From Bauldia sp. (GTDB lineage: Bacteria > Pseudomonadota > Alphaproteobacteria > Rhizobiales > Kaistiaceae): a DNA stretch of 64,000 nucleotides. Below are positions 12,147-49,664 of this stretch, one piece after another. How positions within the stretch are numbered: the first letter of the stretch is position 1; the number at the start of each line of letters is the position of its first letter. Location of the stretch: contig JBBCGQ010000001.1 of the NCBI GenBank assembly GCA_037200845.1, positions 1,426,001-1,490,000 on the forward strand, written 5' to 3'. Under the pieces are notes generated by a model that saw only the letters and a list, made by a program, of their open reading frames with translations, was not told the origin of the DNA and ran no database searches. Position numbers and translations under genes: made by a program.

Positions 12147-13676
12147 ATGAACGACCAGATCAACAATCAGAATCCCAAGAAGCGCAGCGTCCGTTCGCTG
12201 GCGCTCGCCGGCACCGCGCTTGCGCTCGTGCTGGGCGGCGCCGTCATCGGCGGTGCTTCGCTTGAAATAGTGCGCCCGAACGCGGCTCTCGCCGATGCCG
12301 TCTCGGTGCAGGGCGTCGAGCCGGCGAGCTTCGCTGACGTCGTCGACAAGGTTCGCCCGGCGGTGGTCAGCGTCCGCGTCAAGTCGACTGCCGACGACGT
12401 CAGCGCAGACGACAGCGACACGCCCTTCTTCGACTTCCCGCAGGGCACGCCGATGGACCGCTTCTTCAAGCAGTTCCGTCAGCAGAACCCGAACGCCCAG
12501 CGTCCGCAGCGGCAGCAGACCAGCCTCGGCTCCGGCTTCTTCATCTCGGAAGACGGCTACGTCGTGACCAACAATCACGTCGTCGACAAGGAGACCCAGG
12601 TCACCGTCATCATGGATGACGGCACGGAGCTCAACGCCAAGGTCATCGGCGTCGACACCAAGACCGACCTCGCCCTTCTCAAGGTCGACGGCAAGGGCCA
12701 GAAGTTCACCTACGTGAAGTTCTCGGACGCCGAGCCGCGCGTCGGCGACTGGGTGGTAGCGGTCGGCAACCCGTTCGGCCTCGGCGGCACGGTTACCGCC
12801 GGCATCATCTCGGCCCACGGCCGCCAGATCGGCGCCGGTCCCTACGACGACTTCCTGCAGATCGACGCGGCGGTGAACCGCGGTAACTCTGGCGGTCCGG
12901 CTTTCAACGCCCATGGCGAAGTGGTTGGCGTCAACACGGCGATCTTCTCGCCGTCGGGCGGCAACGTCGGCATCGCCTTCGCGATCCCCGCGTCCACTGC
13001 CTCCGGCGTCATCAACCAGATCGAGCAGCATGGCTCGGTCACGCGCGGCTGGCTCGGCGTGCAGATCCAGCCGATCTCGCAGGGCCTCGCCGACTCGATG
13101 AAGCTCGACAGTGCTGCGGGCGCTCTGGTCAACGACGTCACGGCCGGCAGCCCGGCCGCCAAGATCGGCTTCAAGGCCGGCGACGCGATCACCGCCGTCG
13201 ACGGCAAGCCGGTCAAGGACTCGCGCGACCTGGCGCTGCGCATCTCGGCGCTCGAGCCCGGCAAGACGATCAAGGTCACCTACTGGCGCGATGGCGCAAG
13301 CCATGACGTCGACGTGACCATCGGCACCTTCCCGACCGACGAACAGCTCGCCGCCGCGAATCCGAAGGACAAGTCTCCGTCGTCCAAGGAAGCCCCGGCG
13401 ACCTCGATGCTCTCCGACTTCGGCCTGAGCATTGCGCCGAGCGATGACAACACCGGCGTCGTGGTCAGCGACGTCGATCCCAATGGGCAGGCCGCCGAAC
13501 TCGGCCTGCAGTCCGGTGACGTGATCCTCTCGGTCGGCGACAGCGATGTCTCCACCCCGGCCGACGTCGAGAGCAAGATCGCGGCCGCGAAGAAGGATGG
13601 CCTCAAGGCCGTCCGCCTGCGCGTGAAGTCCGGCGACACCACTCAGTTCGTCGCACTCACTTTCGCGACGACCTGA
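12147..13676 (+). CDS. degP: Periplasmic serine protease/chaperone DegP (HtrA, Do family)
   Basis: A 509-residue protein with an N-terminal export sequence (hydrophobic about 18-40). The trypsin-like domain has catalytic triad H144 (TNNHVVDKE), D174 (KTDLALLKVD) and S248 (GNSGGPAF). Two PDZ domains follow (about 290-375 and 410-500). It degrades or refolds misfolded periplasmic proteins. The N-terminal loop before the protease domain is Gln-rich (FRQQNPNAQRPQRQQ), as in LoopA of DegP. The gene has its own leader after ccmH and a good terminator at 13733-13770. The position between ccmH and a two-component pair matches rhizobial degP1. Confidence 0.95.
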   Translation: MNDQINNQNPKKRSVRSLALAGTALALVLGGAVIGGASLEIVRPNAALADAVSVQGVEPASFADVVDKVRPAVVSVRVKSTADDVSADDSDTPFFDFPQGTPMDRFFKQFRQQNPNAQRPQRQQTSLGSGFFISEDGYVVTNNHVVDKETQVTVIMDDGTELNAKVIGVDTKTDLALLKVDGKGQKFTYVKFSDAEPRVGDWVVAVGNPFGLGGTVTAGIISAHGRQIGAGPYDDFLQIDAAVNRGNSGGPAFNAHGEVVGVNTAIFSPSGGNVGIAFAIPASTASGVINQIEQHGSVTRGWLGVQIQPISQGLADSMKLDSAAGALVNDVTAGSPAAKIGFKAGDAITAVDGKPVKDSRDLALRISALEPGKTIKVTYWRDGASHDVDVTIGTFPTDEQLAAANPKDKSPSSKEAPATSMLSDFGLSIAPSDDNTGVVVSDVDPNGQAAELGLQSGDVILSVGDSDVSTPADVESKIAAAKKDGLKAVRLRVKSGDTTQFVALTFATT

Positions 13677-13732
13677 TCCCCTGCGAGCGGCGAAGGTACT
13701 CGATCGTCGCCCCGAGGCTTTCGCCAACGCGG

Positions 13733-13770
13733 ACGGCAGGCCGGCTAACCCCGGCCTGCCGTTCTCTTTT
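13733..13770 (+). terminator. Rho-independent terminator after degP
   Basis: ACGGCAGGCCGG (13733-13744) pairs exactly with CCGGCCTGCCGT (13751-13762) across a six-base loop, followed by TCTCTTTT. It lies 57 bp after the degP stop and 28 bp before the next ATG, separating degP from the two-component operon. Confidence 0.85.
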
Positions 13771-13797
13771 GGGCGGCTCGCAATGTATGGTCATCCC

Positions 13798-14466
13798 ATG
13801 CGGATTCTGCTGATCGAGGACGACAAGGAGACTGCGGCCTACCTTTCCAAGGCGCTGCGCGAGGCGGGGCATGTGCCGGACCACGCGCTGGACGGGGACT
13901 CGGGCGCCGCGATGGCCGCCGACGGCGGCTACGACGTGCTGGTCGTGGACCGCATGCTGCCCAAGCGCGACGGCCTCTCCGTCATCGAGGAACTGCGCGG
14001 CAAGGGCGACCATACGCCGGCGCTGATTCTCTCGGCGCTGGGCCAGGTTGACGACCGCGTCGCGGGCCTGCGCGCCGGCGGCGACGATTATCTCCCGAAG
14101 CCTTACGCATTTTCCGAGCTGCTGGCGCGCGTCGAGGCGCTGGCGCGGCGGCGCATTCCCGACGCGGCCGAGACGGTGTTCCGCGTCGGCGATCTGGAAC
14201 TCGATCGCCTGAGCCACACGGTGGCGCGGAGCGGCCAGGCGATCCCGCTGCAGCCGCGCGAGTTCCGCCTGCTCGAATATCTGATGAAGCACGCCGGCCA
14301 GGTGGTCACGCGCACCATGCTGCTGGAAAATGTCTGGGACTATCACTTCGATCCGCAGACCAACGTCATCGACGTGCACATCTCGCGGCTGCGTGCCAAG
14401 ATCGACAAGGGCTTCCGCGAGCCGCTGCTCCACACCGTGCGCGGCGCGGGGTACATGATCAAGTGA
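13798..14466 (+). CDS. OmpR-family response regulator
   Basis: A 222-residue regulator starting at the ATG at 13798 (MRILLIEDD); the upstream ATG at 13783 adds only five residues. The receiver domain has E7-D9, phospho-acceptor D51 (VVDRMLPKRDG) and the K of LPKPYAF. The winged-helix domain spans about 128-220 (LQPREFRLLEYLM, RGAGYMIK). Its stop overlaps the GTG of the kinase gene, so the two form a cognate pair. This pair sits between degP and glnE as SMc02366/SMc02367 do in S. meliloti (from memory). The regulon is unknown; an envelope or metal stimulus would fit the type but is speculation. Confidence 0.88.
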   Translation: MRILLIEDDKETAAYLSKALREAGHVPDHALDGDSGAAMAADGGYDVLVVDRMLPKRDGLSVIEELRGKGDHTPALILSALGQVDDRVAGLRAGGDDYLPKPYAFSELLARVEALARRRIPDAAETVFRVGDLELDRLSHTVARSGQAIPLQPREFRLLEYLMKHAGQVVTRTMLLENVWDYHFDPQTNVIDVHISRLRAKIDKGFREPLLHTVRGAGYMIK

Positions 14467-15848
14467 CGCGCATCGGCAAGGTCGTCCGCACCACAGCCTT
14501 CAAGCTGTCGGCGATCTACATTGCCGTCTTCTCCGTCTTCTCGATCTTCTTCATCTTCTACATTTCGTATTCGACCAACGTGCTGCTCAACCAGCAGCTC
14601 CGCGACACCATTGCGACCGAGCTGCTCGGGCTGAACGACCAGTACAAAATCGGCGGCCTGCCCGCCGTCGTCGATGTGATCGAGCAGCGCGCCCACCAGC
14701 CCGGTGCCAGCCTCTATCTCGTCACCGATATTTCCGGCCGCATTCTCGCCGGCAACGTCGCCGAGGTCGCGGACGACGTGCTGAATTCGCCGGGCATCGA
14801 CCCGATCCTCGTCCAGTACGAGCGCTACACCGGCGACTCGGAGCAGCGCACCGCGATGGTGCAGGTGGTGCGCCTGCAGGGCGGCTTCCTGCTGCTCGTC
14901 GGGCGCGACGTCGGCGAGCGCGAGCAGTTTCGCCAGATCATCGGCCGCGCGCTGCTCTGGGCGCTGGTCCTGATGATCGCGCTGGCGACGCTGTCTTATA
15001 TCTTCGTGTCGCGCGTCGTCCTGCGCCGGATCGATTCCCTCTCCGCCTCGAGCCGCCGCATCATGGAGGGCGATCTCACCGGGCGGCTGGAGGTGACCGG
15101 TTCGGGCGACGAGTTCGACCGGCTGGCCGACAACGTCAACGCCATGCTGTCGCGTATCGAGCACCTGCTCTACGGCGTCAAGGACGTCTCCGACAACATC
15201 GCGCACGACCTGAAGACGCCGCTGACACGGCTGCGCAACCGCGTCGAGGCGGCGCTCGCCGGCCCGGCCGACGCCGAGCGCTACCGCGCGACGCTGGAGG
15301 CGACGATCGAGGAGTCCGACCAGCTCATCAAGACGTTCAACGCGCTGCTCATGATCGCGCGCATCGAGGCGGGGTCGCCGGACGGCGCCATGACCGAGAT
15401 CGACGTCGAGGCGATCGTGCGCGACGTCGGCGAGCTCTACGAACCGGTCGCCGACGAAACCGGCGTCGAGCTCGTCGTCGATGCGGCGCCGCAGCCCATC
15501 GTGATCAAGGCGAGCCGCGAGCTGCTCGGCCAGGCGCTCGCCAACCTCATCGACAACGCCATCAAATACGGCGCGCCGGAGTCGGGCCAGCCGCGCATCG
15601 CGATCAGCTCGGCGCGCGAGGGCGACACGCTGATCCTGCGCGTCGCCGACAACGGGCCGGGCATCCCGGCGGAGGACCGCGAACGCGCACTGCAGCGATT
15701 CGTGCGGCTGGAGAAAAGCCGGACGCAGCCGGGCAGCGGCCTCGGATTGAGCCTTGTCGCGGCGGTCGCGCGCCTGCACCATGGCACCATCGAGCTGGGC
15801 GACGGCAACCCGGGCCTCGTGGTGACCATGCGCTTGCCGCTGAAATGA
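14463..15848 (+). CDS. Sensor histidine kinase partner
   Basis: A 461-residue inner-membrane kinase starting at a GTG that overlaps the regulator's stop. Helix 1 lies at about 13-38 (YIAVFSVFSIFFIFYIS), a periplasmic domain at 39-155, helix 2 at about 160-185, a HAMP domain to about 235 (MEGDLTGRLEVTGSGDEFDRLA), phospho-acceptor H248 in IAHDLKTPLTRLRN, and ATPase motifs DNAIKYG, VADNGPGIP and GSGLGLSLV. It is a QseC/PhoR-like EnvZ-class kinase. glnE begins five bases after its stop and may be cotranscribed. Confidence 0.88.
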   Translation: MTRIGKVVRTTAFKLSAIYIAVFSVFSIFFIFYISYSTNVLLNQQLRDTIATELLGLNDQYKIGGLPAVVDVIEQRAHQPGASLYLVTDISGRILAGNVAEVADDVLNSPGIDPILVQYERYTGDSEQRTAMVQVVRLQGGFLLLVGRDVGEREQFRQIIGRALLWALVLMIALATLSYIFVSRVVLRRIDSLSASSRRIMEGDLTGRLEVTGSGDEFDRLADNVNAMLSRIEHLLYGVKDVSDNIAHDLKTPLTRLRNRVEAALAGPADAERYRATLEATIEESDQLIKTFNALLMIARIEAGSPDGAMTEIDVEAIVRDVGELYEPVADETGVELVVDAAPQPIVIKASRELLGQALANLIDNAIKYGAPESGQPRIAISSAREGDTLILRVADNGPGIPAEDRERALQRFVRLEKSRTQPGSGLGLSLVAAVARLHHGTIELGDGNPGLVVTMRLPLK

Positions 15849-15852
15849 CGGG

Positions 15853-18777
15853 ATGCCCGCGAAGACGCCGCCGAAATCATCGCTCGCCGCGAAGCTGAAG
15901 CCGCGCATCAGGCCGGCGACGGCCGCGGCAACGAAGGCGCGGATGGCGGAGCTGGAGCCGGCCAAGGCGCCGGCATCCGCGGTCGCGCCTTTTCTTGCCG
16001 CGGTGATGGAGTGCTCGCCTTTCCTTGCCGAGTTGATGCGCGACGATCCGGAGCGGCTCGCCGCGCTTCTCGACGCTGATCCGGACGCGCGGCTGAAGGC
16101 GATCACTACTGCCACCGCAGGTGCTTGGCGCGATACGAACGAAGCCGAGTTGATGGCGGCGCTCCGCAAGGCGCGAAATGAGGTCGCGTTGCTTGCCGCA
16201 CTGGCCGATCTCGGCGGCGTGTGGGACGTGACGGCCGTGACGACTGCGCTGTCCGCGTTCGCCGATGCCGCCGTCGGCGCGGCGGTCCGCTTCCTGCTGG
16301 CGCAGGCGGCATCGTCCGGCGACATCGCCATCGCCGATGACTCAGTGCCCGACGAAAACTCCGGCTTCATCGTGCTCGCCATGGGCAAGTTCGGCGCCGG
16401 CGAGCTCAACTATTCCAGCGACATCGATCTCATCGTCCTGTTCGATCCCGAGAAGGTGCGGGTCGCCGACGACAAAATTCCGGCCGAGGTGTTCGTCAAG
16501 CTGACCAAGCGCCTGGTCGCGCTGCTGCATGAGCGCACCGCCGACGGCTACGTCTTCCGCATCGATCTTCGCCTGCGCCCGGATCCGAGCTCGACCAGCA
16601 TCGCGATCTCGACCGACGCGGCGCTGCAGTACTACGAGAGCCTCGGCCAGAACTGGGAGCGTGCCGCGCTGATCAAGGCGCGCGCCGTCGCTGGCGACAT
16701 CCATGCCGGCGAAGTGTTCCTGGCGGAGCTGACGCCGTACATCTGGCGGAAGTATCTCGACTATGCCGCGATCGCCGATATCCATTCGATCAAGCGGCAG
16801 ATACAGGATCACCGCGGCCACCAGGAGATCGCGGTCGCCGGCCACAACGTCAAGCTCGGCCGCGGCGGCATCCGCGAGATCGAGTTTTTCGTTCAGACGC
16901 AGCAACTGATCGCCGGCGGGCGCGACCCGGCGCTGCGCGGCCGCGGCACACTGGCGATGCTGGCGGCGCTCGCCGACGGCGGCTGGATCGACACCGCGGC
17001 GCGCGACGACCTCACGCGCGCGTACCTGTTCCTCCGCGAAGTCGAGCATTGCCTGCAGATGGTCGGCGACGAGCAGACGCATACGCTGCCCGAGGACGAC
17101 GCCGGTCTGGCGGCGATCGCGCGCATGGCGGGCTTCGGCGACACCGCCGCGTTCGCCAAGGCGCTGACCGCGACGCTGACCATAGTCCGCGACCGCTACG
17201 CCCATCTCTTCGAGGCGGCGCCGACGCTGACATCGCCCGCCGGCAGCCTCGTCTTCACCGGCGAGGAGGACGATCCCGAAACGCTGGCGACGCTCCGCCG
17301 TCTTGGCTACCGCAAGCCGGAGGATGTGACGCGCGCCGTCCGCGGCTGGCATCACGGCCGTTACCCGGCGACCCGGTCGGCGAGCGCGCGTGAGCGGCTC
17401 ACCGATTTCGTGCCGGTGCTGATCGAGACGCTCGGCGGCAACGAGAATGGCGACGCCGCCTTCGCCGCCTTCGACCGGTTCCTGGCGCGCGTGCCGACCG
17501 GCGTGCAGCTCTTCGCGCTGCTCCAGTCCAACAAGGGCCTGCTCGGCCTGCTGGCGATGATCCTCGGCGCAGCGCCGCGGCTCGCCGAGACGATCGCGCA
17601 GCGCCCGCATGTGCTGGATGCGCTGATCGAGCCGGCGTTCTTCGGCAACCTGCCGGATCGCAAGACATTGGAGCGGCGCCTTGCCGGGACGCTCGCCGAG
17701 GCGGAGTCGTTCGAGGATGTACTCAATCGCGCCCGCATCTTCGGGCAGGAGCAGACGTTTCTCATCGGCGTTCGCGTGCTGGCGGGCACGGTCAGCGTGC
17801 GCAGCGCCGGCTATGCCTACAGCGACCTCGCCGAGGTGCTGCTGACCTCGCTGCTCGCCGCCGTGCAGGATGAATTCGCATCGGCGCATGGCCGCATGAA
17901 AGGCGGCGCGGTGGCGCTGGTGGCGATGGGCCGGCTCGGCGCGCGCGAGATGACGGCGGCCTCCGACCTCGATCTGCTGCTGCTTTACGATTTCGACGAG
18001 AAGGCAACGGCCTCCGATGGCAAGCGGCCGCTGCAGGGCACGCTGTATTTCGCGCGCCTGACGCAGCGGCTGGTAGCCGCCGTCTCGGCGCCGACGGCGG
18101 AGGGGACGCTCTATCCGGTCGACTTCCGCCTGCGCCCCTCCGGCAATGCCGGTCCGCTCGCCACGCACATCGACGGCTTCGCCGTCTACCAGGCGAAGGA
18201 GGCGTGGACGTGGGAGCACATGGCGCTGACGCGGGCGCGCGTCATCGCCGGCGACGCCAAGCTGGTCGCCCGGGCGCGCGCCGAGATCGCGAAGATCGTC
18301 GCCAGGCCGCGCGACCCGGCCAAGGTCATCGCCGACGTAACCGAGATGCGCGGCATGGTCGAGGACGCCAAGGGCGGCGAGGGCGCGTGGGACCTGAAGC
18401 AGGCCGCGGGCGGGCTGGTCGATATCGAGTTCATCGCGCAAACGCTGCAACTGGTGCACGCCGCGAAGCATCCGGAGATCGTGTCGACGGAAACCAACGT
18501 CGCGCTGGCCGCGGCGGCGAAGGCCGGGCTGCTATCGGCGGCGGATGCGGAGGTGCTGCTGCCGGCGTTGTCGCTCTATCAGGCGCTGATCCAGATTCTG
18601 CGGCTGTGCGTCGATGGCGTCTTCGACCCGGCCGCGGCGCCACGCGAATTTCTCGAGCGGCTGGCAAAGGCCGCGGACCTTCCGGATTTTGTTACGCTCG
18701 ATGCGCATTTGCGGGAGACCGAGCGGGCGGTGCGGGGTGTGTTTACGCGGCTGGTGGGGAAGGTGGGCTCCGCTTAA
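15853..18777 (+). CDS. glnE: Bifunctional glutamine synthetase adenylyltransferase/deadenylase GlnE
   Basis: A 974-residue enzyme that adenylylates and deadenylylates glutamine synthetase in response to PII and glutamine, so controlling nitrogen assimilation. It has two nucleotidyltransferase domains, each with the G-x-x-E-x(5)-S-D-x-D motif: the N-terminal deadenylase (GAGELNYSSDIDLIVLFD, about residue 180) and the C-terminal adenylylase (GAREMTAASDLDLLLLYD, about 697). PII-uridylyltransferase-type helical domains follow each. The length is normal for the family. The ATG lies close behind the kinase stop. A palindromic repeat cluster follows the gene and may end the transcript. Confidence 0.95.
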   Translation: MPAKTPPKSSLAAKLKPRIRPATAAATKARMAELEPAKAPASAVAPFLAAVMECSPFLAELMRDDPERLAALLDADPDARLKAITTATAGAWRDTNEAELMAALRKARNEVALLAALADLGGVWDVTAVTTALSAFADAAVGAAVRFLLAQAASSGDIAIADDSVPDENSGFIVLAMGKFGAGELNYSSDIDLIVLFDPEKVRVADDKIPAEVFVKLTKRLVALLHERTADGYVFRIDLRLRPDPSSTSIAISTDAALQYYESLGQNWERAALIKARAVAGDIHAGEVFLAELTPYIWRKYLDYAAIADIHSIKRQIQDHRGHQEIAVAGHNVKLGRGGIREIEFFVQTQQLIAGGRDPALRGRGTLAMLAALADGGWIDTAARDDLTRAYLFLREVEHCLQMVGDEQTHTLPEDDAGLAAIARMAGFGDTAAFAKALTATLTIVRDRYAHLFEAAPTLTSPAGSLVFTGEEDDPETLATLRRLGYRKPEDVTRAVRGWHHGRYPATRSASARERLTDFVPVLIETLGGNENGDAAFAAFDRFLARVPTGVQLFALLQSNKGLLGLLAMILGAAPRLAETIAQRPHVLDALIEPAFFGNLPDRKTLERRLAGTLAEAESFEDVLNRARIFGQEQTFLIGVRVLAGTVSVRSAGYAYSDLAEVLLTSLLAAVQDEFASAHGRMKGGAVALVAMGRLGAREMTAASDLDLLLLYDFDEKATASDGKRPLQGTLYFARLTQRLVAAVSAPTAEGTLYPVDFRLRPSGNAGPLATHIDGFAVYQAKEAWTWEHMALTRARVIAGDAKLVARARAEIAKIVARPRDPAKVIADVTEMRGMVEDAKGGEGAWDLKQAAGGLVDIEFIAQTLQLVHAAKHPEIVSTETNVALAAAAKAGLLSAADAEVLLPALSLYQALIQILRLCVDGVFDPAAAPREFLERLAKAADLPDFVTLDAHLRETERAVRGVFTRLVGKVGSA

Positions 18778-18893
18778 TCCTCCCCCGAGGGGGGCAAAAC
18801 CGCACAGCGGTTTTGGGGAGGGCCGCTTTGCCTTGGGGGCACCCCTCCCGAAACCGCTTCGCGATTTCGACCTCCCTCAAGGGAAGGTTGGCC
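18778..18893 (+). repeat. Dispersed palindromic repeat, CTCCC/AAACCG type (copy 2)
   Basis: A run of nested hairpins: CTCCCCCGAGGGGGG, CAAAACCGCACAGCGGTTTTG with GGGGAGGG, then CCCTCCCGAAACCG, a short loop, GATTTCGACCTCCC and TCAAGGGAAGG. The second half resembles the repeat at 2694-2810. It fills the convergent gap between glnE and the minus-strand kinase gene, so it may act as a bidirectional terminator. Confidence 0.7.
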
Positions 18894-18897
18894 TCGC

Positions 18898-21243
18898 CTA
18901 CGCCGCCGAGCGATGCGGCTCCGGCACGGGCGGCGCCAGCGGCAGCCTTACCGACACGATCGTACCGCGGCCTTCCGTCGAGCGGATGCGCATCGTGCCG
19001 CCGTGAAGCGAGGCCTGCGACGAGGCGATGGCGAGGCCGAGGCCGGAACCGCGATGGTTCTTGGTGAACTGGTTCGACACCTGCTCGAACGGCCGGCCGA
19101 GCTTGTTGAGCGCCTCGCGCGGGATGCCTATGCCGGAGTCGGAGACCGAGAACGTCGCGGCGCCGCCGACGGCGCGGGCGCGCACGCGGATGCGCCCGCC
19201 GGCCGGCGTGAACTTCACCGCGTTCGACAGAAGATTGAGCATGATCTGCGTCAGCGCGCGCCGGTCGCCGCGCATGTGGAGGCCGTGGCCGATCTCGGGG
19301 ACCACCTCGATCTGCTGCGCCGCCGCCATGGTCGAGACGACGCGGATCGATTCCTCGACCAGCTCGTCGAGGTCGAGGTCCTCCGGGTGCAGCATCATGC
19401 GGCCGGCCTCGATGCGCGACATGTCGAGCACGTCGTTGATGACGCCGAGCAGGTAGGTCCCGCTCTGGTGGATGTCCTGGCAGTACTCGACGTACTTGGC
19501 GGAGCCGAGCGGGCCGAACATCCCGGACTCCATGATCTCCGAGAAGCCGATGATCGCGTTGAGCGGGGTGCGCAGCTCGTGGCTGATGTTGGCGAGGAAC
19601 TCGGACTTCGTCCGGTTCGCCGCCTCGGCGCGGTCCTTCTCCTCGGCGTATTTCTCGGCAAGCTCGACCATCTGCTGCGCCTGCTGTTCCAGCTTCTGGC
19701 GGGATTGGCGGAGGTCCGCGATGGTCGCCATCAGCCGGCGCTCGCCGTCGATCAGCTTGCTCTCGTGGCGCTTGAGCTGGGTGATGTCGGTGCCGACCGA
19801 GACGAAGCCGCCGTCCTTGGTGCGCCGCTCGTTGATTTGCAGCCAGCGCCCATCCTCGAGCTGCAACTCGAAGCTCCGCGCGCCGTCTTCCGGCTTGCCA
19901 TCGACGACGACCTGCGAACGCACCAGCGGCTTGCGGCCGGCGGCGATGACTTCGTTATAGGCGGCGCCGGGCTGCAGGGCGGCGTCGGGGATACCGTGGA
20001 GCTGCTGGTATTTCGAGTTGCACATCACCAGCCGGTTTTCCGAATCCCACAGCACGAAGGCTTCCGACACCGTCTCGATGGCGTCGCGGAGGCGGATGTC
20101 GGCGGTCTTGGAGCGCTCCACCAGCCGCATCTGCTCGGTGACATCGACGGCGATGCCGATGAGGTGCGGCTCGGCCCCGCCGCCGTCGACCAGTTCGGCG
20201 CGGGCGCGCAGCCACACCCAGCGGCCGTCCTCGTGGCGCATGCGGAACATTCGGTCGACCGTGGTCTCGGCGCTGCCGTACATCGATTCGGCGAGCGCCA
20301 TCAGGTCGCCGTCCTCCGGGTGCATCAGCCGCGCCACCTCGCCGTAGCCGAGCAGCGCGTCGCGCGGCTCCAGCCCGACCAGCTCGAACATCGAGCGCGA
20401 CCAGAACATGCGGCCCTTGGCGAGATCCCAGTCCCACAGCCCGCAGCGGCCGCGCATCAGCGCCGTCTCGAAATGGGCCTGCGTCTCGGTGTAGATGCGG
20501 TCGGCTTCCGCCGCCCGCGACACCTGCGCGAAGTAGCCGTAGAGGATGACCAGCAGGATGGCGCTGGTGCCGACGAAGATGGTGACGTTGAGCGACACCG
20601 CCTGGCGCCAGCCGGCGTAGACTGCGGCGACCGGCTGCACGACCGCGACGAAGCCCAGCGGCGCGCCGATCTCGGTGGCGGCGGCAAGCGCCGGGTCGTT
20701 GTTGGTGAGGTTGATCTCGAGCACGCCGGCGCGGGCGCCGAACGTGGTGAGCGGCTGCGCCTCGCCGATGATGTCGGTGAGCGCCTTGCCCTCGATGTCG
20801 GTGGCGCGCGGCGCCGTCGCGACGATGATGCCGGCGTCGTTGGTGACGTAGATGCGGCGGTCGTCGGCGGTGGCGCCCGCCGGCAAGGCGTCGGCGAGCA
20901 TGTTGAGGATCGCGTCGGTCGATAGCGGCGTCGCGCCTTGCCCGGCGAAGGCGGCCGAGGTGACGGCGGCGATCATCGCGACGCTCTGGCGCGCGTTGGT
21001 CTCGTGGTCGGCCTTCTGCTGGTAGAGTTCGACGAAGCGGGCGAGGCCCACCATCACCAGAAACATCACGATCAGGATCGGGATCGCCCGGCGCAGCGCC
21101 GGCTCGGCCGCGAGCAGCTTCTGGTAGGCGGGATGCGCGAGCAGCTTCGCGTGCCCCGGAATGCCGGTTTTCCCGGCCGCTCCGTTACCGGAAAAAGGCA
21201 AACGCTTCGCCACGGGCGGCTGTGCCGCCTCGGCCCGCGCCAT
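18898..21243 (-). CDS. pleC: PleC/DivJ-type PAS-domain sensor histidine kinase
   Basis: A 781-residue kinase. It has a cytoplasmic N-terminus, membrane helix 1 (about 52-70), a periplasmic domain (about 75-195), helix 2 (about 215-238), two PAS domains (about 255-375 and 385-500), and a kinase core with H555 in ISHELRTPLNAIIGFSEIM and ATPase motifs NAVKFTPAGG, VSDSGIGIP and GSGLGLAIA. The core with MFGPLG directly after the H-box is typical of the PleC/DivJ/PdhS kinases that set phosphorylation of DivK in the alphaproteobacterial cell cycle. A PleC-like kinase next to glnE also occurs in S. meliloti. There is no regulator gene beside it. PleC identity is probable but unproven. Confidence 0.75.
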   Translation of the reverse strand: MARAEAAQPPVAKRLPFSGNGAAGKTGIPGHAKLLAHPAYQKLLAAEPALRRAIPILIVMFLVMVGLARFVELYQQKADHETNARQSVAMIAAVTSAAFAGQGATPLSTDAILNMLADALPAGATADDRRIYVTNDAGIIVATAPRATDIEGKALTDIIGEAQPLTTFGARAGVLEINLTNNDPALAAATEIGAPLGFVAVVQPVAAVYAGWRQAVSLNVTIFVGTSAILLVILYGYFAQVSRAAEADRIYTETQAHFETALMRGRCGLWDWDLAKGRMFWSRSMFELVGLEPRDALLGYGEVARLMHPEDGDLMALAESMYGSAETTVDRMFRMRHEDGRWVWLRARAELVDGGGAEPHLIGIAVDVTEQMRLVERSKTADIRLRDAIETVSEAFVLWDSENRLVMCNSKYQQLHGIPDAALQPGAAYNEVIAAGRKPLVRSQVVVDGKPEDGARSFELQLEDGRWLQINERRTKDGGFVSVGTDITQLKRHESKLIDGERRLMATIADLRQSRQKLEQQAQQMVELAEKYAEEKDRAEAANRTKSEFLANISHELRTPLNAIIGFSEIMESGMFGPLGSAKYVEYCQDIHQSGTYLLGVINDVLDMSRIEAGRMMLHPEDLDLDELVEESIRVVSTMAAAQQIEVVPEIGHGLHMRGDRRALTQIMLNLLSNAVKFTPAGGRIRVRARAVGGAATFSVSDSGIGIPREALNKLGRPFEQVSNQFTKNHRGSGLGLAIASSQASLHGGTMRIRSTEGRGTIVSVRLPLAPPVPEPHRSAA

Positions 21244-35010: not shown

Positions 35011-36723
35011 ATGATCGACAAAGCTTCCCTTTCGCGCGCCATCGACCAGGGCCGCGGCGCCGCGCCTGCCGATCTCGTGATCAAGAATGTCGGCCTGCTC
35101 GACATCGTCTCCGGCGGCGTCACGGTCACCGACATCGCCATCTCCGGCGACCGCGTCGTCGGCACATACGAGAAGTACAAGGGCGCGCGCGAGATCGACG
35201 GCACGGGACTGTTCGCCGTGCCGGGATTCATCGACACGCACCTGCACGTCGAGTCTTCGCTGCTGACGCCGCAGGAATTCGACCGCTGCGTCCTGCCGCA
35301 TGGCGTCACCACCGCCATCTGCGATCCGCACGAGATCGCCAATGTGCTCGGCGCCGAGGGTATCCAATATTTCCTCGACTCGGCCGGGACGACGGTGATG
35401 GACCTGCGCGTCAATCTATCGTCGTGCGTGCCGGCAACCGCGTTTGAGACATCGGGCGCGACGCTAAAGGCGAAGGATCTGATCGCGCTACGCAATCATC
35501 CGAAGGTCATCGGCCTCGCGGAGTTCATGAATTTCCCAGGCGTTCTCCACAGCGAGCCGGATGTGCTCGACAAGCTGGTCGCCTTCCAGGATGGCCACAT
35601 CGACGGCCACGCGCCGCTGGTGCGCGGCTACGACCTAAACGGCTACCTCGCCGCCGGCATCCGCACCGACCACGAGACGACGATCGCCAGCGACGGCCGC
35701 GAGAAGCTGAAGAAAGGGATGCAGGTGCTGATCCGCGAGGGGTCGGTGACCAAGGACCTGCATGCGCTCGCCGAGATCCTCGACGAGAACACGTCAAGCT
35801 TCTGCTGCCTGTGCACCGACGACCGCAACCCGCTCGACATCGCCGAGGAAGGCCACCTCGATTTCATGATCCGCACGCTGATCGGCCTCGGCCGGCCAGT
35901 GCATCATGTCTATCGCGCCGCGAGCTGGTCCGCGGCCAACGCCTTCGGCCTCCGCGACCGCGGCATGATCGCACCCGGCAGGCGTGCCGACATTGTGCTC
36001 GTTGGCGACCTGAAGGAATGTGACGTCAGGACCGTGATCTCTGCCGGCCGCATCGTCGGCGACGATCTGTTCGCGGCGCGGAAGAAGGTCGCGCCGGTCG
36101 GGCTCGATAGCATGAAGTCGCGCGAGGTCACGGCGGCGGATTTCCGCGTGCCCGGCGAGGCGGCCGAGCTGACCATGATCGGCGTCGCGCCCGGCCGCGT
36201 CGTGACCGACAGCGTGCAGAAATGGGTGGAGAGTATCGACGGCGTACGGCAGACCGATGTCCTCCGCGACGTCGCCAAGGTGGCGGTCATCGAGCGTCAC
36301 GGCAAGAACGGCAACATCGCCCGCGCTTTCGTCACCGGCTTTGGCCTGCAGCGCGGCGCCATCGCATCATCCGTCGGCCACGACAGCCACAACATCTGCG
36401 TCATCGGCATGGACGACGAGGACATGGCGGGCGCGGTCAACCGCCTGCGCGAGCTGGGCGGCGGCTATGTCGTGGCGTCCGGCGGCGAGGTGGTGGCGGA
36501 GATCGCGCTGCCCGTCGCCGGGCTGATCAGCCTGCAGCCGTTCGACGAGGTGCGCGTCGCGCTGAAGAAGCTGCGCGACGCCACCCACGAGGAACTCGGC
36601 TGCACCTTGCCCGAGCCGCTGCTGACGGTGGTGTTCCTGCCGCTGCCCGTGATCCCGCACATGAAGATCACCGACTTTGGCCTGTTCGACGTCGATAAAT
36701 TCGCGCTGGTCGAGCAGGCCTAG
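35011..36723 (+). CDS. ade: Adenine deaminase
   Basis: A 570-residue amidohydrolase converting adenine to hypoxanthine and ammonia in purine salvage. Metal-site motifs are [16 protein letters not shown] and [18 protein letters not shown]; further ligands lie in GHAPLV and [10 protein letters not shown]. The C-terminal region ([14 protein letters not shown]) is typical of Ade. Its start follows putA by 49 bp with AAAGGACC upstream. The last 4 bp overlap the end of the convergent MFS gene. Confidence 0.93.
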
Positions 36724-38168
36724 CTCGCGCGGCGGGCGCCGAAGGCATCGGCCGTCGCTTGCCGGGCGCGGGCGCGTTCGGCGACTTCGTTGGCGCGCTC
36801 GCGGAACCAGTCTTCCAGCGTCCGCTCGGGCGAGACGAACGGCAGGTCGAATTCGATCTCGGGCAGCGCGGCCGCGGGTGCCGGCGCGATCTCCATCGCC
36901 ACCGGCGGCGCGTCGTGGCCGAGCAGCGCGGGCGGCGGCGGCTCGAACAGGAACGACAGGTCGAACTTGATCTCGGGGAAATTGTCGATGTCGGTCGCGG
37001 CCGGCGGCGTGGCGCGGCGGCCTTCGTCGCCGGTCTTGTGCACGGGCCAGAGCAGGAAGGCGGTGAGGCCGAGGAAGCCAACCGCGATCGAGATTGGCAA
37101 GGCTTCGGGCCCGAACAGATCGATCAGGTAGCCGACCGGCGTCGAGCCGACGATGGAGCCGGCGGCGTAGGCCATGGCGAAGCCCGTGGACACGTAGGCG
37201 AGCGTCTGGCCGCGGAAGTCCTGGCCCATGAGGATGACGCCCAGCGTGTAGATGCCGGAGATCGCGCCGCCGGCGAGGAACAGCACCGGCCACAGCGCGA
37301 ACGGCGAGCCGACCGCGAAGGGGAGGAGGGCGCTGGTGATCGTCGCCAGGATCGAACACGTCAGCAGCGTGAACTTGCGGCCATAGCGGTCGGCCATCCA
37401 GCCGAGTACGGCGACCAGCACCGCCTCGCCAAGGCTGAAGATCGCGACCAGTTGCGCCGCGCCGGCGTCGCTGACGCCGTGCGCCAGGCCGTAGAGCGGC
37501 AGCAGGGCCTGCATCGCGGTCTCGCCGATGCCGCCGAGGAAGGCGGCAGCGACCAGCGCGCCGGCGACCGACAGCGCCAAGCGCAGGCTCTTGGTGTCGC
37601 CGAGATTCTCTTCTTCTTCGACCTCGCCCTTTGCCGAGGTGATCGAAACCGCCACCGCGACGCCGACGGCGAGCGGCACCATCGCCACGATCAGCGGCAG
37701 CGAGCCGGTGACGCCGACGCCGCCGAGCACCAGCGGGCCGATGAATTGGCACGTCGCGTAGAGCGTGCCCGACGCGCCGATGATGCGGCCGCGGTGGCGG
37801 TCATCGACGACGCCGTTCAGCCAGATCTCGGTCGTCGTCCACAGCGCCGCGAAGCAGGCGCCCATGACGAAGCGCGCCGCGAACCAGACCACGAGATGAT
37901 CGGCGGCCAGGATCGCTGCGAACGAGGCGAGCGACAGCGCGAAGAGGGCGGTGACCAGTTGGCGGAGGCCGAATTTATCGATCAGCCACGGCAGCACCGG
38001 GCCGACGATCAGGATGCCGGCGCCGGCGAGCGATGCGTTAAGGCCGATCAGCCAGGTCGCCAACTCGCGCTTTTCCAGCGCCAGCGAGAAGAACGGATAG
38101 CTATAGCCGTAGAGCAGCGCCTCCGCACCGATCAGGATGAGTACGCCGATGACACGCCACGTCTTCAT
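36720..38168 (-). CDS. MFS transporter with a repeated-motif cytoplasmic tail
   Basis: A 482-residue major facilitator with 12 membrane segments in about residues 1-385, including the loop-2 motif after helix 2 and a WMADRYGRK loop between the halves. It resembles YcaD/UmuD-like sugar-family MFS proteins. Unusually, about 95 residues follow the last helix. They contain [12 protein letters not shown] (from residue 397) and [12 protein letters not shown] (from residue 435), a short motif repeated with a 38-residue period, then an amphipathic helix ([20 protein letters not shown]). The gene lies 10 bp after the SET-domain gene, in the same operon. Substrate unknown; the tail may dock a partner protein. 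Confidence 0.85.
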
Positions 38169-38178
38169 GAGCGGCTAC

Positions 38179-38595
38179 TCAGATCTGGCAGCGGTTTTCC
38201 GTCTGGCACCAGCACTGCTTGCCTTCCGGCACCAGGTTGAAGGTGCGGTAGTCAGCGGTGATTTCCTCGCCCGGCTGGATGTCGCGGAGCGCATAGACGT
38301 AGAGCTGGCCTTCGACGCGGGCGTTCGGGTGGCAGGAATGGTTGAGGTAGTCGACGCCTTCCGGCTCCCACATCGGCAGCAGGCAGAGCAGCTTGGTGCC
38401 CTCCAGCCTGAGGTGCACCGACTGGCGCCACCAGTAATCGTCGAGCGAAGATTTGTCGGCGAGGTCGACCATGATCGACTTGCCGTCGAAGAAGCCGATC
38501 AATTCGTCCTTGGCGATCGGCTTGGTCGCGTAGATCGCCTTGTGGTCCGCGCTGATCGCGCGCACCTCGAGGAAATCAAAATTGGAATAGCTCAC
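38179..38595 (-). CDS. SET-domain protein with post-SET cysteines
   Basis: A 138-residue protein starting at a GTG (VSYSNFDFLEV) preceded by GAGGGG, overlapping the end of the upstream gene by 20 bp. The SET core is clear: GIY-like opening region, VDYLNHSCHPNARVEG (the NHSCxPN signature for S-adenosylmethionine binding), and IQPGEEITADY (the ELxxDY motif). The C-terminus carries a post-SET-like CWCQTENRC. SET proteins methylate lysines; bacterial ones act on ribosomal or other proteins, or their targets are unknown. It is in an operon with an unrecognised protein and an MFS transporter, so a dedicated substrate is possible. Confidence 0.85.
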   Translation of the reverse strand: MSYSNFDFLEVRAISADHKAIYATKPIAKDELIGFFDGKSIMVDLADKSSLDDYWWRQSVHLRLEGTKLLCLLPMWEPEGVDYLNHSCHPNARVEGQLYVYALRDIQPGEEITADYRTFNLVPEGKQCWCQTENRCQI

Positions 38596-39562
38596 TGGAA
38601 AGCCCCTCGACCTCGAACACTTCGTCCGATACCGCCACGCCGCCCGATTGCCCGTCGCGGGTCGGCACGTACGGTTGTCCATCGAAAAGGTTAGCCGACC
38701 ATTTAGCCGTCAGCCGCGCGGCATAGGTAATCGGCATTTCGTGCTGGTAGGGGCACTTCTTCAGCTCGGCGAACACCGGATCGTTGTGCGCCGCGAACCA
38801 GCGCGTGCGGTCCTCGCTGAGGTGGACGCCGCGCGAGGGATCCTCGGTGACGCGGCTGTAGTTGCCGATGGTGGTGATCGACATGTTCTGCCAGGCCGTG
38901 ACGCAGCGCTGGAACAGCCGCTCGACGGCGTCTCGGTCGTGCGTCATTGCGTGCACCGGCCGACCCCAGGCGCGCCGGGCCTGGTCGTCGACCAGGCGGG
39001 CGAAGGCAAAGGCGTCCGAGGTCGTGTTGACCGCGGTGAAGGGCGCCGACAGCGACGGATCGTAGAGCGGATCGCGTGGGTTGGCGGCGTTGCGGCAGAA
39101 GGCGACCGAGAAGAAATCGTAGAACGTGTCGAGGCCGGTGACCGGGCACGGCACCTCGATGGAATGCGCCAGCGCCTTGCCGGCGATCAGCGCCTCAAGG
39201 TCGTCGGTGAGCCCGGCGTCGTACATCGCGGCGCCGAGGATGTTGAGCTCGTCCTCGACCGTCGGGCAGCGCTCTTCGCTGACCAGGATGGCGAGAAAGC
39301 CGGTCTTGCGATGGGCCGCGACCTCGCGGCGGAAGTCGGCGAGCGCCGCGGCGTATTCCGCGCCGCTGGCAAAGCGGGCGACGTGGTAGCGGCCGAGCCG
39401 GAACTCGCGCTTGCCGGCCATGCACTGCAGGCCCGCCTCGAGCCACGCATTGAAGCTGTCGGCTTTCTGGTGGTAGGGGCAGCCGGCGGCTTTGGCCTCA
39501 GCCGCAACCGGCATCGCCTGCCGCGCGAAAACATTCGCCGACGCGAAATCCGCCAGACTCAT
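38576..39562 (-). CDS. Unrecognised 328-residue protein with two CPYxH motifs
   Basis: First gene of the minus-strand operon with the SET and MFS genes. I do not recognise a family. It has no membrane helix or signal peptide. Nine cysteines are spread along it. Two have a matching context: GCPYHQK near residue 28 and KCPYQHEM near residue 272; others lie in EERCPTVED and VPCPVTGLD. A Cys/His metal site formed from both ends is conceivable. Secondary-structure impression is mixed alpha/beta with FLAILVSEE and TAWQNMSITTIGNYSR segments. It may supply or modify the substrate exported by the MFS protein, but this is only inferred from the operon. TTGACA lies about 80 bp upstream on this strand as a possible -35. 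Confidence 0.7.
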   Translation of the reverse strand: MSLADFASANVFARQAMPVAAEAKAAGCPYHQKADSFNAWLEAGLQCMAGKREFRLGRYHVARFASGAEYAAALADFRREVAAHRKTGFLAILVSEERCPTVEDELNILGAAMYDAGLTDDLEALIAGKALAHSIEVPCPVTGLDTFYDFFSVAFCRNAANPRDPLYDPSLSAPFTAVNTTSDAFAFARLVDDQARRAWGRPVHAMTHDRDAVERLFQRCVTAWQNMSITTIGNYSRVTEDPSRGVHLSEDRTRWFAAHNDPVFAELKKCPYQHEMPITYAARLTAKWSANLFDGQPYVPTRDGQSGGVAVSDEVFEVEGLSSELFQF

Positions 39563-39956
39563 GAACGCCTCCTCGTACGCAACTCAACCGCATTAATACT
39601 TGTCCGCCGGGCGCAACTAAGCTGCCTCTATTAACCAGTTGTCAACTATTCGGGGCCGGCGGAGAGCCTGGAAAATAGGCAGGCCAGCGGAAATTCACCT
39701 TATTTCACTAAGCGTTAACCATGACTGTAATCTTCGTCACAGCCTCCGCGTGTCTGCCGAGCTCCCGGCTCGCCGACAACCCAGGCTAGAATAAGGTCCG
39801 ACGAATACTGGAAAACCCTAGTGTCCGACTATGCGACGCGCGGCGTATTCGGCGCAAAACTGTGCCTCTGGCGCTCTATGCTTAACCAAGGCTTGCCGCG
39901 CTCTTAAACAGATCGCAAGTCCGATTTGCTAGCTCTTCGCCATTATCAGGGGACCT
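39563..39956. other. Long divergent intergenic region with three CtrA-like sites
   Basis: No gene is seen in these 394 bp. It is more AT-rich than its flanks. Three near-identical motifs lie on the + strand: TTAACCAG (39631-39638), TTAACCAT (39715-39722) and TTAACCAA (39892-39899). TTAACCAT is the known short form of the CtrA-binding consensus (with TTAA-N7-TTAA). AGTTG-T-CAACT is an 11-bp palindrome at 39637-39647, and on the minus strand it contains TTGACA. The region separates the c-di-GMP gene from the SET/MFS operon and probably drives both. Confidence 0.5.
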
Positions 39957-39971
39957 GTGGGCGAGACCACG

Positions 39972-42152
39972 ATGGCCAGAGCAATTACCGGGCGGATCAC
40001 CGCCAACCTTATCGCCGGTATCGTCATTACCGTCGGCACGGTGCTCATCACCATCTCGTGGATGGCGCACAAGCATAACGAACAGGCCGCGATCAGCACT
40101 CAGACCATGGTTGCCGGCGGCGTCGAGGCGATGGGCAAGCGCCTGGCCTCGCTCGCCAACGACTACGGCTGGTGGGAAGAGGCCTACGACGCCTACGTCC
40201 GCAAGGACAAGACCTGGATCGACGCCAACGTCGGCACCGGCATCACCGACACCAACATCGCCGACATGCTGGTCATCGCTTCGCCGGACGGCAAGCTCGA
40301 CCCCGACAACGAGTGGCTGATCGACGGCGCGCCCGACGCCATCGAAAAGATCATCACGCCCGGCAAGCTCGCCGCGATCAAGAAGATCGCCGATACTTTG
40401 CCGGTCGAGAATTTCGCCGCCAAGAGCGTCATCTACATCGACACGCCGTCGGTGCCGATGATGATCTCGATCCAGCATCTCAGCCCGGTGTCGAAGGCCG
40501 GCGAGGTCAAGTCGTCCGATCTGCCGATCATCGTCTTCGGCCAGTATCTCGAAAGCCAGCGCCTGATCGATCTCGGCAAGGCGTTCCTGATCGACGACCT
40601 TCATTTCGTCCGCGCCGACAGCGCCCCCGACGGCCAGCCGGCGGTAGTGAATCTTGTCGGCAAGACCACGGGCTACTTTGCCTGGACGCCGCCGAAGCCG
40701 GGCGACGCGCTGCTCCGCAGCGTGCTCCTGCCGATCGGCGTCGCGCTGCTGCTCTTCTGCGTCGTCGCCGCGACCACCGCGTTCCGCGCCCGCCGCATGG
40801 CGATCGCGCTCACCGAAAGCGAGAAGGAAGCCGTCACCGCCGCGCGCACCGACTCGATGACGGGCCTCATGAACCGCACCGGCTTCAGCGAGATGCTGGA
40901 ATCGCCGCACTACGAGGGCGCCTGCGGCGTCGGCGACCTCGCCGTCATCTATCTCGACGTCAACGGCTTCAAGCTGGTCAACGACTCGATCGGCCACCAC
41001 GGCGGCGACGAACTCGTCCGCCTGCTCGCCAGCCGCATCGGCAGCGTCATGCCGGAAGGCGGCACGCTTGCCCGCATCGGCGGCGACGAGTTTGCCGTCG
41101 CGCTGCTCACCAACGGCCATGGCACCCTGGCGCTCGAGACGGCGCGCCGTATCGCCCATTCGATCGACCGCCCGTTCACGATCTCGGGCTTCGAGTTTCA
41201 CGTCACCGCCTCGGTCGGCTACGCCATCGCCAACGAGATCGGCATGAAGTCGTCGGAGATCATCCGCCGCGCCGACGTCGCCATGTATCACGCCAAGAAC
41301 GGCGCCGAGCGCGAGCCGGTCGCCTACCAGGCGACCATGGAAACCGGCGCGCTGGAAAAGAAGCAGATCGAGACCGGCTTGCGCCGCGCCATCGAAAACG
41401 GCGACCTTAAGGTGTTCTACCAGCCGGTCGTACGCGCCATCGACGGCGAGATCGTCGGCCTCGAGGCGCTGATGCGCTGGACCTCGGCCGAATTCGGCGC
41501 CGTGTCGCCGGCGGTGTTCATTCCCGTCGCCGAGGAAACCGGCCTCATCCACGACATCGGCCGCCTCGTCGTCACCCGCGCCTGCATCGACCTGCACCGC
41601 TGGCCGGGCCTGCAGATGGCGATCAACGTCTCGCCGGTGCAGCTCCGCGATCCGGGCTTCGCCGACGAGATCCGCCAGATCGTCGAGAGCCACGGCCACA
41701 GCCCGTCGCGCTTCGACCTCGAACTGACCGAAGGCATCCTGGTCAACAACCCGATGATCGCCGAGCGCAAGCTGCGCAAGCTGAAGGAATTCGGCTTCAA
41801 CCTGTCGCTCGACGATTTCGGCACCGGCTTCTCCTCGATCGGCTACCTCCGCCAGTTCCCGTTCAACACGCTGAAGGTCGACCGCTCCTTCGTGAAGGAA
41901 ATCGGCATGAACGGCGAGGCCAACGCGCTGTTCCAGTCGCTGGTCTCGCTGGGCGATGCCCTCGGCCTGTCGATCATCGCGGAAGGCATCGAGACCGAGG
42001 ATCAGTTGCGGCTGCTGCGGCTGACCCGCTGCCAGCAGGTGCAGGGCTTCTTCTTCAGCCGCCCGGTTCCGGCCGACGACATCGATACGATGCTCGCCGG
42101 CAAGCAGCGCGGCGCGCTGCCCGCCGACCGCCGCGTCGCCGCCCGCGCCTGA
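39972..42152 (+). CDS. CHASE4-GGDEF-EAL cyclic-di-GMP signalling protein
   Basis: A 726-residue membrane protein. Helix 1 lies at about 9-32, followed by a periplasmic CHASE4 sensor domain (about 35-255, with LANDYGWWEEAYDAY), helix 2 at about 256-278, then GGDEF (370-374, intact RIGGDEFAVAL) and EAL (498-500, intact GLEALMRW, with DDFGTGFSSIGYL). Both domains keep their signatures, so diguanylate cyclase and phosphodiesterase activities are both possible; I see no RxxD inhibition site directly before GGDEF. A GTG at 39957 with AGGGGA is an alternative start five residues upstream. Three CtrA-like boxes upstream suggest cell-cycle control of motility or attachment. Confidence 0.92.
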   Translation: MARAITGRITANLIAGIVITVGTVLITISWMAHKHNEQAAISTQTMVAGGVEAMGKRLASLANDYGWWEEAYDAYVRKDKTWIDANVGTGITDTNIADMLVIASPDGKLDPDNEWLIDGAPDAIEKIITPGKLAAIKKIADTLPVENFAAKSVIYIDTPSVPMMISIQHLSPVSKAGEVKSSDLPIIVFGQYLESQRLIDLGKAFLIDDLHFVRADSAPDGQPAVVNLVGKTTGYFAWTPPKPGDALLRSVLLPIGVALLLFCVVAATTAFRARRMAIALTESEKEAVTAARTDSMTGLMNRTGFSEMLESPHYEGACGVGDLAVIYLDVNGFKLVNDSIGHHGGDELVRLLASRIGSVMPEGGTLARIGGDEFAVALLTNGHGTLALETARRIAHSIDRPFTISGFEFHVTASVGYAIANEIGMKSSEIIRRADVAMYHAKNGAEREPVAYQATMETGALEKKQIETGLRRAIENGDLKVFYQPVVRAIDGEIVGLEALMRWTSAEFGAVSPAVFIPVAEETGLIHDIGRLVVTRACIDLHRWPGLQMAINVSPVQLRDPGFADEIRQIVESHGHSPSRFDLELTEGILVNNPMIAERKLRKLKEFGFNLSLDDFGTGFSSIGYLRQFPFNTLKVDRSFVKEIGMNGEANALFQSLVSLGDALGLSIIAEGIETEDQLRLLRLTRCQQVQGFFFSRPVPADDIDTMLAGKQRGALPADRRVAARA

Positions 42153-48128: not shown

Positions 48129-48132
<4 letters not shown>
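47104..48132 (+). CDS. cobT: Nicotinate-nucleotide--dimethylbenzimidazole phosphoribosyltransferase CobT
   Basis: A 342-residue enzyme making alpha-ribazole 5'-phosphate for the lower ligand of B12. Signatures: TKPAGSLGRLEQIVEWLAAW, VFAGNHGVTAEGVSAFP, GEMGIGNTTVAAAI (substrate site), PVIVDGYVATSAAAVL and the C-terminal GEGTGAALA with the catalytic Glu. The GTG at 47104 is favoured because SGLPFDDFRALVRAMPGPSE, upstream of the ATG at 47161, matches the usual CobT N-terminus. It is divergent from cobS and ends overlapping the convergent kinase gene. Confidence 0.93.

Positions 48133-49664
<1,532 letters not shown>

Follow-up and report, generated by a model that had tools for sequence, protein, structure and literature searches.

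CtrA is reported to recognize full sites of the form TTAA-N7-TTAA, half sites and an ungapped variant, TTAACCAT (PMC6180460, PMC4287350). In Caulobacter, sites near the -35 position are described as activating and half-sites lying over the -10 as repressing; the P2 promoter of ctrA is described there with a full site at -39, and the degenerate TTAC-N7-TTCA is accepted (PMC4287350). Several reports connect CtrA with the c-di-GMP enzymes. In Agrobacterium tumefaciens, dgcB has a CtrA site at -52 from its start codon and is derepressed when its CtrA-type TTAA is changed (PMC7003649). In Hyphomonas neptunium, eight predicted c-di-GMP genes are reported to be under CtrA control, direct in six cases, with the motif TTAA-N7-TTAAC (PMC7200025), and a comparative study describes altered transcripts of c-di-GMP enzymes upon loss of CtrA (PMC9756655).

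Here we describe a candidate for a further link of this kind, found in a window of 64 kb (the whole stretch of DNA analysed), which spans positions 1426001-1490000 of a genome comprising a single contig of 3,152,584 bp. From its sequence, we assign a probability of about 0.72 to the reading that CtrA binds a 394-bp intergenic gap in this window and that this gap acts as a bidirectional regulatory region for both of the units that flank it.

The gap and its flanking genes

The gap separates a minus-strand gene for a 328-aa protein (start at 39562), which heads a predicted operon, from a plus-strand GGDEF-EAL gene (start at 39957):

39563-39956, strandless: intergenic gap of 394 bp between divergent genes, proposed as a CtrA-controlled bidirectional promoter region
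39957-42152, plus strand: CHASE4-GGDEF-EAL gene, 731 aa, with both the GGDEF and EAL motifs present
38576-39562, minus strand: first divergent gene, for a 328-aa protein of no Pfam or NCBIfam family
38179-38595, minus strand: second divergent gene, for a SET-domain protein
36720-38168, minus strand: third divergent gene, for an MFS transporter

Read by eye, the translation of the GGDEF-EAL gene lacks an RxxD at five residues ahead of GGDEF; with this absence and with the GGDEF and EAL motifs present, the enzyme could either synthesize or degrade c-di-GMP. The 328-aa protein has no match in Pfam, NCBIfam or PDB sequences, and seven aligned members share the invariant C28-P29, C47, AGKREF, CPVTG, HNDPVFAE and RDGQSGG. 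Its fold model is poor (mean pLDDT 66, last residue omitted); the best fold match is AglA at E 0.013 with a TM of at most 0.27, none being found at E 0.001, such that any structural resemblance of the model to this arginine-binding protein is faint and serves as a lead only. The SET-domain protein is possibly a protein lysine methyltransferase.

Close orthologues of the CHASE4-GGDEF-EAL protein (48-67% identity) were recovered from 23 of the 28 family genomes, including the genome under study. Four genomes (G007, G008, G009 and G012) with no close orthologue (best 31-45% identity) were left out, as were the contig-cut copy of G005 and a tandem second copy in G006 (L117). The 328-aa orthologues adjoin GGDEF-EAL within the family: on its other flank the 328-aa gene is found at 17 of the 23 loci and the SET gene directly at four (genus g2, G001-G004), with the order 328-aa/SET/MFS seen whole in the window and at L001, the locus of a relative at 66% identity. 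As the family genomes are related, the counts given below are not independent and overstate the independence of the observations. On the downstream side of GGDEF-EAL, a second, tandem GGDEF-EAL gene (about 30-33% identity) is found at L090-L094 and other loci; the genome under study has an AlkZ-like gene and no tandem copy there.

Three boxes and the predicted divergent promoter

The earlier note on this DNA had singled out three TTAACCA boxes in the same orientation, one of them, TTAACCAT, as a half-type CtrA site. The coordinates confirm both the arrangement and the presence of that form:

39631-39645, plus strand: box 1, TTAA-N7-TCAA (TTAACCAGTTGTCAA), which includes TTAACCAG at 39631-39638; on the minus strand it reads TTGA-N7-TTAA
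39715-39722, plus strand: box 2, the ungapped CtrA half-type site named above, 84 bp from box 1
39882-39889, plus strand: box 3, TTAACCAA, whose position is not conserved

On the minus strand, box 1 presents itself as TTGACA...TTAA, with the TTAA placed inside the spacer of a predicted promoter, upstream of a -10-like GCTTAG:

39640-39645, minus strand: TTGACA, predicted -35 hexamer of the divergent promoter
39617-39622, minus strand: GCTTAG, predicted -10-like hexamer of the divergent promoter, weak in consensus, with a 17-bp spacer

A scan of the gap for promoters with an E. coli-type consensus reported nothing. Among the 21 orthologous intergenic regions that could be placed (L109, with the 328-aa motif absent and the SET motif 1231 bp off, and L112, with neither found, were not), TTGAC-N6-TTAA is present on the divergent side in 10. 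Five regions, from genus g8, keep the TTGAC and have lost the TTAA, and another six have neither, leaving the element degraded or missing in 11 of the 21. The form TTGA-N7-TTAA occurs anywhere in the gap in 14 of 21 regions, with a shuffle mean of 0.12. TTGACN6TTAA is not enriched: we counted two in the genome under study (one being box 1) against four for the reversed control, and 103 against 124 over the 28 genomes. With just these two copies, and 1-8 per genome in the other 27, we rejected the idea that the pattern represents a promoter type of general use. Since this rare arrangement recurs in the GGDEF-EAL/divergent gap of 13 of the 28 genomes, 10 times on the divergent side and three times on the GGDEF side, box 1 is most likely a part of the predicted promoter of the 328-aa/SET/MFS operon.

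Box 2 keeps its distance from box 1: a TTAA lies 83-85 bp away in seven of the 10 genomes in which box 1 is present (that under study, G001-G004, G006 and G011), within a TTAACC in six of these seven. The 84 bp amount to about eight helical turns, from which we infer helical phasing of the two boxes. Searching for the direct pair TTAACC-N64..94-TTAACC gave a single match in the genome under study and in G001, both at this locus, which also accounts for one of three matches in G003 and both matches in G004; the remaining 24 genomes gave no match here, although 17 of them have one elsewhere, and over all 28 the pair is found 33 times against 94 for the control. As for box 3, the alignment used for box positions had four rows, G004 being left out. 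TTAACCAA lies 60-62 bp before the proximal element (see below) in G003 and G004 and 22 bp before it in the genome under study; this box probably adds little. At a different locus, all 14 genomes of genus g8 (G013-G026) were seen by eye to carry TTAACCA(T/C)G...CTTAAG...TTAACC over about 104 bp.

A predicted GGDEF-EAL promoter element

Nearer to the GGDEF-EAL gene lies an element that was absent from the list of the earlier note, followed by a -10-like sequence:

39904-39918, plus strand: TTAA-N7-GCAA, predicted promoter element of the GGDEF-EAL gene
39930-39935, plus strand: TAGCTC, predicted -10-like register of the GGDEF-EAL promoter, weak

TTAA-N7-[TG][AC]AA is found near this position in 22 of the 23 GGDEF-EAL orthologues, its TTAA standing 46-71 bp before the matched start; L090 has CTAA instead. 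When the orthologues are aligned on this TTAA, AA occupies +13/+14 in 22/22, and a TANNNT-like -10 follows at a fixed distance (first T in 9/22, A in 20/22, last T in 19/22). By eye, no TTGACA was seen at the matching -35 in these 22 aligned sequences. With the -10 at a fixed distance, the 5' end of the 39904-39918 element would fall at about -38 relative to the predicted start of GGDEF-EAL transcription, a position from which full sites activate in Caulobacter (PMC4287350). Conservation at the orthologous promoters is thereby seen in part: in 10/21 regions for the divergent element and 22/23 for the proximal one, while box 3 does not keep its position.

The main alternative to CtrA control of both units is that CtrA acts through boxes 1 and 2 on the 328-aa/SET/MFS operon alone, the 39904 element being read by a sigma factor or another activator and c-di-GMP lying outside CtrA control. 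Box 1 sits inside the predicted divergent promoter, at a position relative to that promoter which is kept wherever the box is present. Moreover, the second half of the proximal element is TTAA in 0/22 sequences, and its form is found in 0/27 regions upstream of ccrM (27 of 28 loci; L204 ends at a contig edge and was left out), on account of which the element may be something other than a CtrA site. Against this, the TTAA-N7-xxAA spacing is kept in 22/23 orthologues at the position of an activating CtrA site, with the -35 lacking TTGACA by eye as noted. Further, the pattern TTAAN7KMAA occurs 31 times in the genome under study (56 for the reversed control), and three of these are in the gap. Four more stand at CtrA-type sites: two overlap a TTAACCA, at hemE/Maf (352328) and an export gene (2145042), and two lie 82 bp from the ctrA TTAACCA (2750813) and 19 bp from the TTAACCA at 2780527. 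The proximal pattern combined with its -10 gives 15 matches in the 28 genomes, six of them at this locus and all six from genus g8, and no match in the genome under study. Weighing these points, we consider control of the divergent operon alone unlikely.

CtrA and its motif in the genome

The genome encodes CtrA: the protein at 2751100 has 86% identity to a Caulobacter sequence, the next best reaching 38%, and scores 430 bits with the NCBIfam model NF045991 (cut-off 350). Two TTAACCA lie upstream of ctrA, about 200 and 100 bp away. The full site TTAAN7TTAA is found 19 times genome-wide against five for the reversed control, and all 19 are intergenic. None occurs in its exact form in the gap, which has the accepted half forms TTAACCAT and TTAACC and the degenerate full forms TTAA-N7-TCAA and TTAA-N7-GCAA.

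An intergenic site stands directly ahead of the start of 64 genes; 27 of these, picked by eye, were scanned, so that the following tally is not unbiased. The scanned set includes a DNA methylase with CcrM as its best match (615 bits, under the cut-off of 830), an Flp pilin, RcpC/CpaB, TadE, a TolQ/ExbB-type protein, an OmpA protein whose gene lies behind tolB, RpoD and a sigma-54 activator. One further site is flanked by the uroporphyrinogen decarboxylase (hemE) and Maf genes, and two PAS-GGDEF-EAL genes also belong to the set. Several members of this group are standard CtrA targets. Others that were scanned, namely a FadL-type porin, an aminopeptidase, TPR proteins and HTH proteins, are not obvious ones. 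Among the genes picked by eye, the motif thus appears to mark CtrA-regulon genes in this genome. A rough Fisher test for enrichment of GGDEF/EAL genes among the site-bearing genes used assumed totals and is given no weight.

CtrA-type sites were also noticed at other places. Two further PAS-GGDEF-EAL genes, at 169134 (L158) and 641204 (L130) of the contig (G000:C1), have such sites upstream, one a full TTAA-N7-TTAA and one TTAACCAT. Between the uroporphyrinogen decarboxylase and Maf genes, at G000:C1:352339 (L125), there is a TTTA-N7-TTAACCAT. In Caulobacter, hemE lies next to the origin of replication, so this site may belong to an origin as well. In S. meliloti the origin is reported as unbound by CtrA (PMC4433202). 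At G000:C1:1358119-1358168 (L140), two full CtrA-type sites and one TTAACCA are packed into 50 bp; the neighbouring genes encode a DUF2385 protein and an 89-aa protein of no family. A search of the gap itself with Rfam for riboswitches or other known RNAs gave no match up to E 1.

A motif by itself is no proof of the protein that reads it, and the CtrA query matches 33 places in the genome, which points to many receiver-domain proteins; the boxes could hence be read by another regulator, be it a different OmpR-type protein, MucR or the like. The 86% identity is, however, reached by CtrA only, and the same motif stands ahead of ctrA, the CcrM-like methylase gene and pilin genes. GANTC is absent from the gap, so there is no sign of GcrA/CcrM control either. 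A regulator other than CtrA is therefore, in our estimate, quite improbable.

Occurrence of the motif and controls

The 64-kb window has no TTAACCA other than the three boxes, and the gap is the sole place in the genome where three fall within 300 bp. Shuffles of the window contained a mean of 0.53 and reached three in 3 of 100 cases, whereas dinucleotide shuffles of the gap contained a mean of 0.03 and reached at least three in 0/5000. When the copies were placed at random in a simple model, for which intergenic lengths were assumed, some gap with three TTAACCA arose in 49/5000 trials. Across the 3.15 Mb, TTAACCA is not enriched, with 53 occurrences against 70 for the reversed-pattern control. 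A home-made gene caller places 41 of these 53 between genes, namely the three in the gap and 38 of the 50 that lie elsewhere in the genome. At these counts the motif is not frequent in all intergenic regions; the earlier note had put forward such a check for the 8-mer. As several of the patterns show no genome-wide enrichment, the case for the gap rests on the place of the sites and not on their totals.

In the 21 orthologous intergenic regions, TTAACC is present in 15 and absent from six (shuffle mean 3.2), and in the 300 bp upstream of the 23 GGDEF-EAL genes it is present in 13 (shuffle mean 2.8). The equivalent figures are 22/27 upstream of ccrM (shuffle mean 1.8) and 0/17 upstream of putA (shuffle mean 0.5); for putA, 17 of the 26 returned loci were used, the others being second segments, and the set has a higher G+C (0.65 vs 0.54). 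Chance occurrence of AT-rich words in an intergenic gap, with which the lack of genome-wide enrichment would agree, is very improbable in view of the gap shuffles, the putA control and the conservation of positions and spacing in other genera.

Proposed regulation by CtrA

With a CtrA orthologue encoded, its motif ahead of typical targets and the sites conserved in the family, CtrA control of the gap appears well supported at the level of sequence. The best reading is that this control is strongest for the divergent operon and good for GGDEF-EAL. The earlier note had suggested cell-cycle control of c-di-GMP or, alternatively, of the divergent operon; the data favour both targets, each through a different part of the gap. 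Under the favoured reading, CtrA~P would bind box 1 (39631-39645), where it overlaps the minus-strand -35, together with box 2, and the occupancy of the two would set transcription of the 328-aa/SET/MFS operon. CtrA would also bind the degenerate full-type site at 39904-39918 and so set expression of GGDEF-EAL. As for the sign of regulation, we would guess activation, judging from the position of the site, though the Agrobacterium dgcB site represses.

In other Alphaproteobacteria, CckA-ChpT, with DivK and PleC/DivJ-class kinases upstream, is established as the phosphorelay that feeds CtrA. Expression of GGDEF-EAL and the divergent operon would be expected to follow it, and a link of both flanking units to the cell cycle is probable. 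A more specific proposal is that, in this family, CtrA uses two helically phased sites spaced by about 84 bp, one of them over a -35, to couple the c-di-GMP enzyme to the divergent operon, so that the state of the cell cycle would reach a small-molecule output or one of protein methylation; this is speculative and we doubt it.

The window also has two histidine kinase genes, which the earlier note had placed in the PleC/DivJ class:

18901-21243, minus strand: PAS-HisKA-HATPase kinase, whose top NCBIfam model is DivJ, at a score under the cut-off
48132-49664, minus strand: HisKA-HATPase kinase, for which the PdhS and DivJ models rank second and third, both scoring under their cut-offs

Both have cores of the type seen in this class; the DivJ and PdhS cut-offs are far from reached, and the assignment would be to the PleC/DivJ 'class' only and not one of orthology. 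Nothing ties either kinase to the gap. The genes from 12147 to 21243 follow the order 509-aa gene, OmpR-type regulator, kinase, glnE and PAS-kinase, which we take to recall the S. meliloti pleC region; this likeness in order hints that the 18901-21243 kinase is PleC-like.

Comparison with known systems

CtrA control of c-di-GMP genes is already known from Agrobacterium and Hyphomonas, and the gap would be a fresh, well-conserved candidate example of it. The less expected part is the apparent link of CtrA to the SET-domain/328-aa/MFS operon. Our literature search found no paper joining CtrA, a SET domain and a diguanylate cyclase, and it is on that search alone that we regard this link as having no earlier report. 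The locus thus adds a conserved and precisely arranged candidate to the connection between CtrA and c-di-GMP, in a family of the Hyphomicrobiales that is probably little studied. It also points to defined elements, the 39904 site and the pair of boxes 1 and 2, through which to tell which of the two divergent units CtrA controls. More generally, for the reading of genomes, a visible cluster of boxes can belong chiefly to the neighbour on the opposite strand.

As in A. tumefaciens dgcB, a CtrA-type TTAA stands here near the start of a gene for a c-di-GMP enzyme; unlike dgcB, which is a gene for a GGDEF diguanylate cyclase, this one encodes a CHASE4-GGDEF-EAL protein and has a divergent operon and several sites. 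The Hyphomonas regulon was defined by ChIP-seq and expression, whereas the present candidate is known from sequence alone and has degenerate full sites. The rule on site position described for Caulobacter (PMC4287350) is applied here to predicted start sites. Finally, the gap resembles the fla2 region of Rhodobacter sphaeroides in having CtrA sites between divergent promoters (PMC6180460); while that region is flagellar and its promoters are described as a few bp apart, the gap studied here spans 394 bp and holds two well-separated elements.
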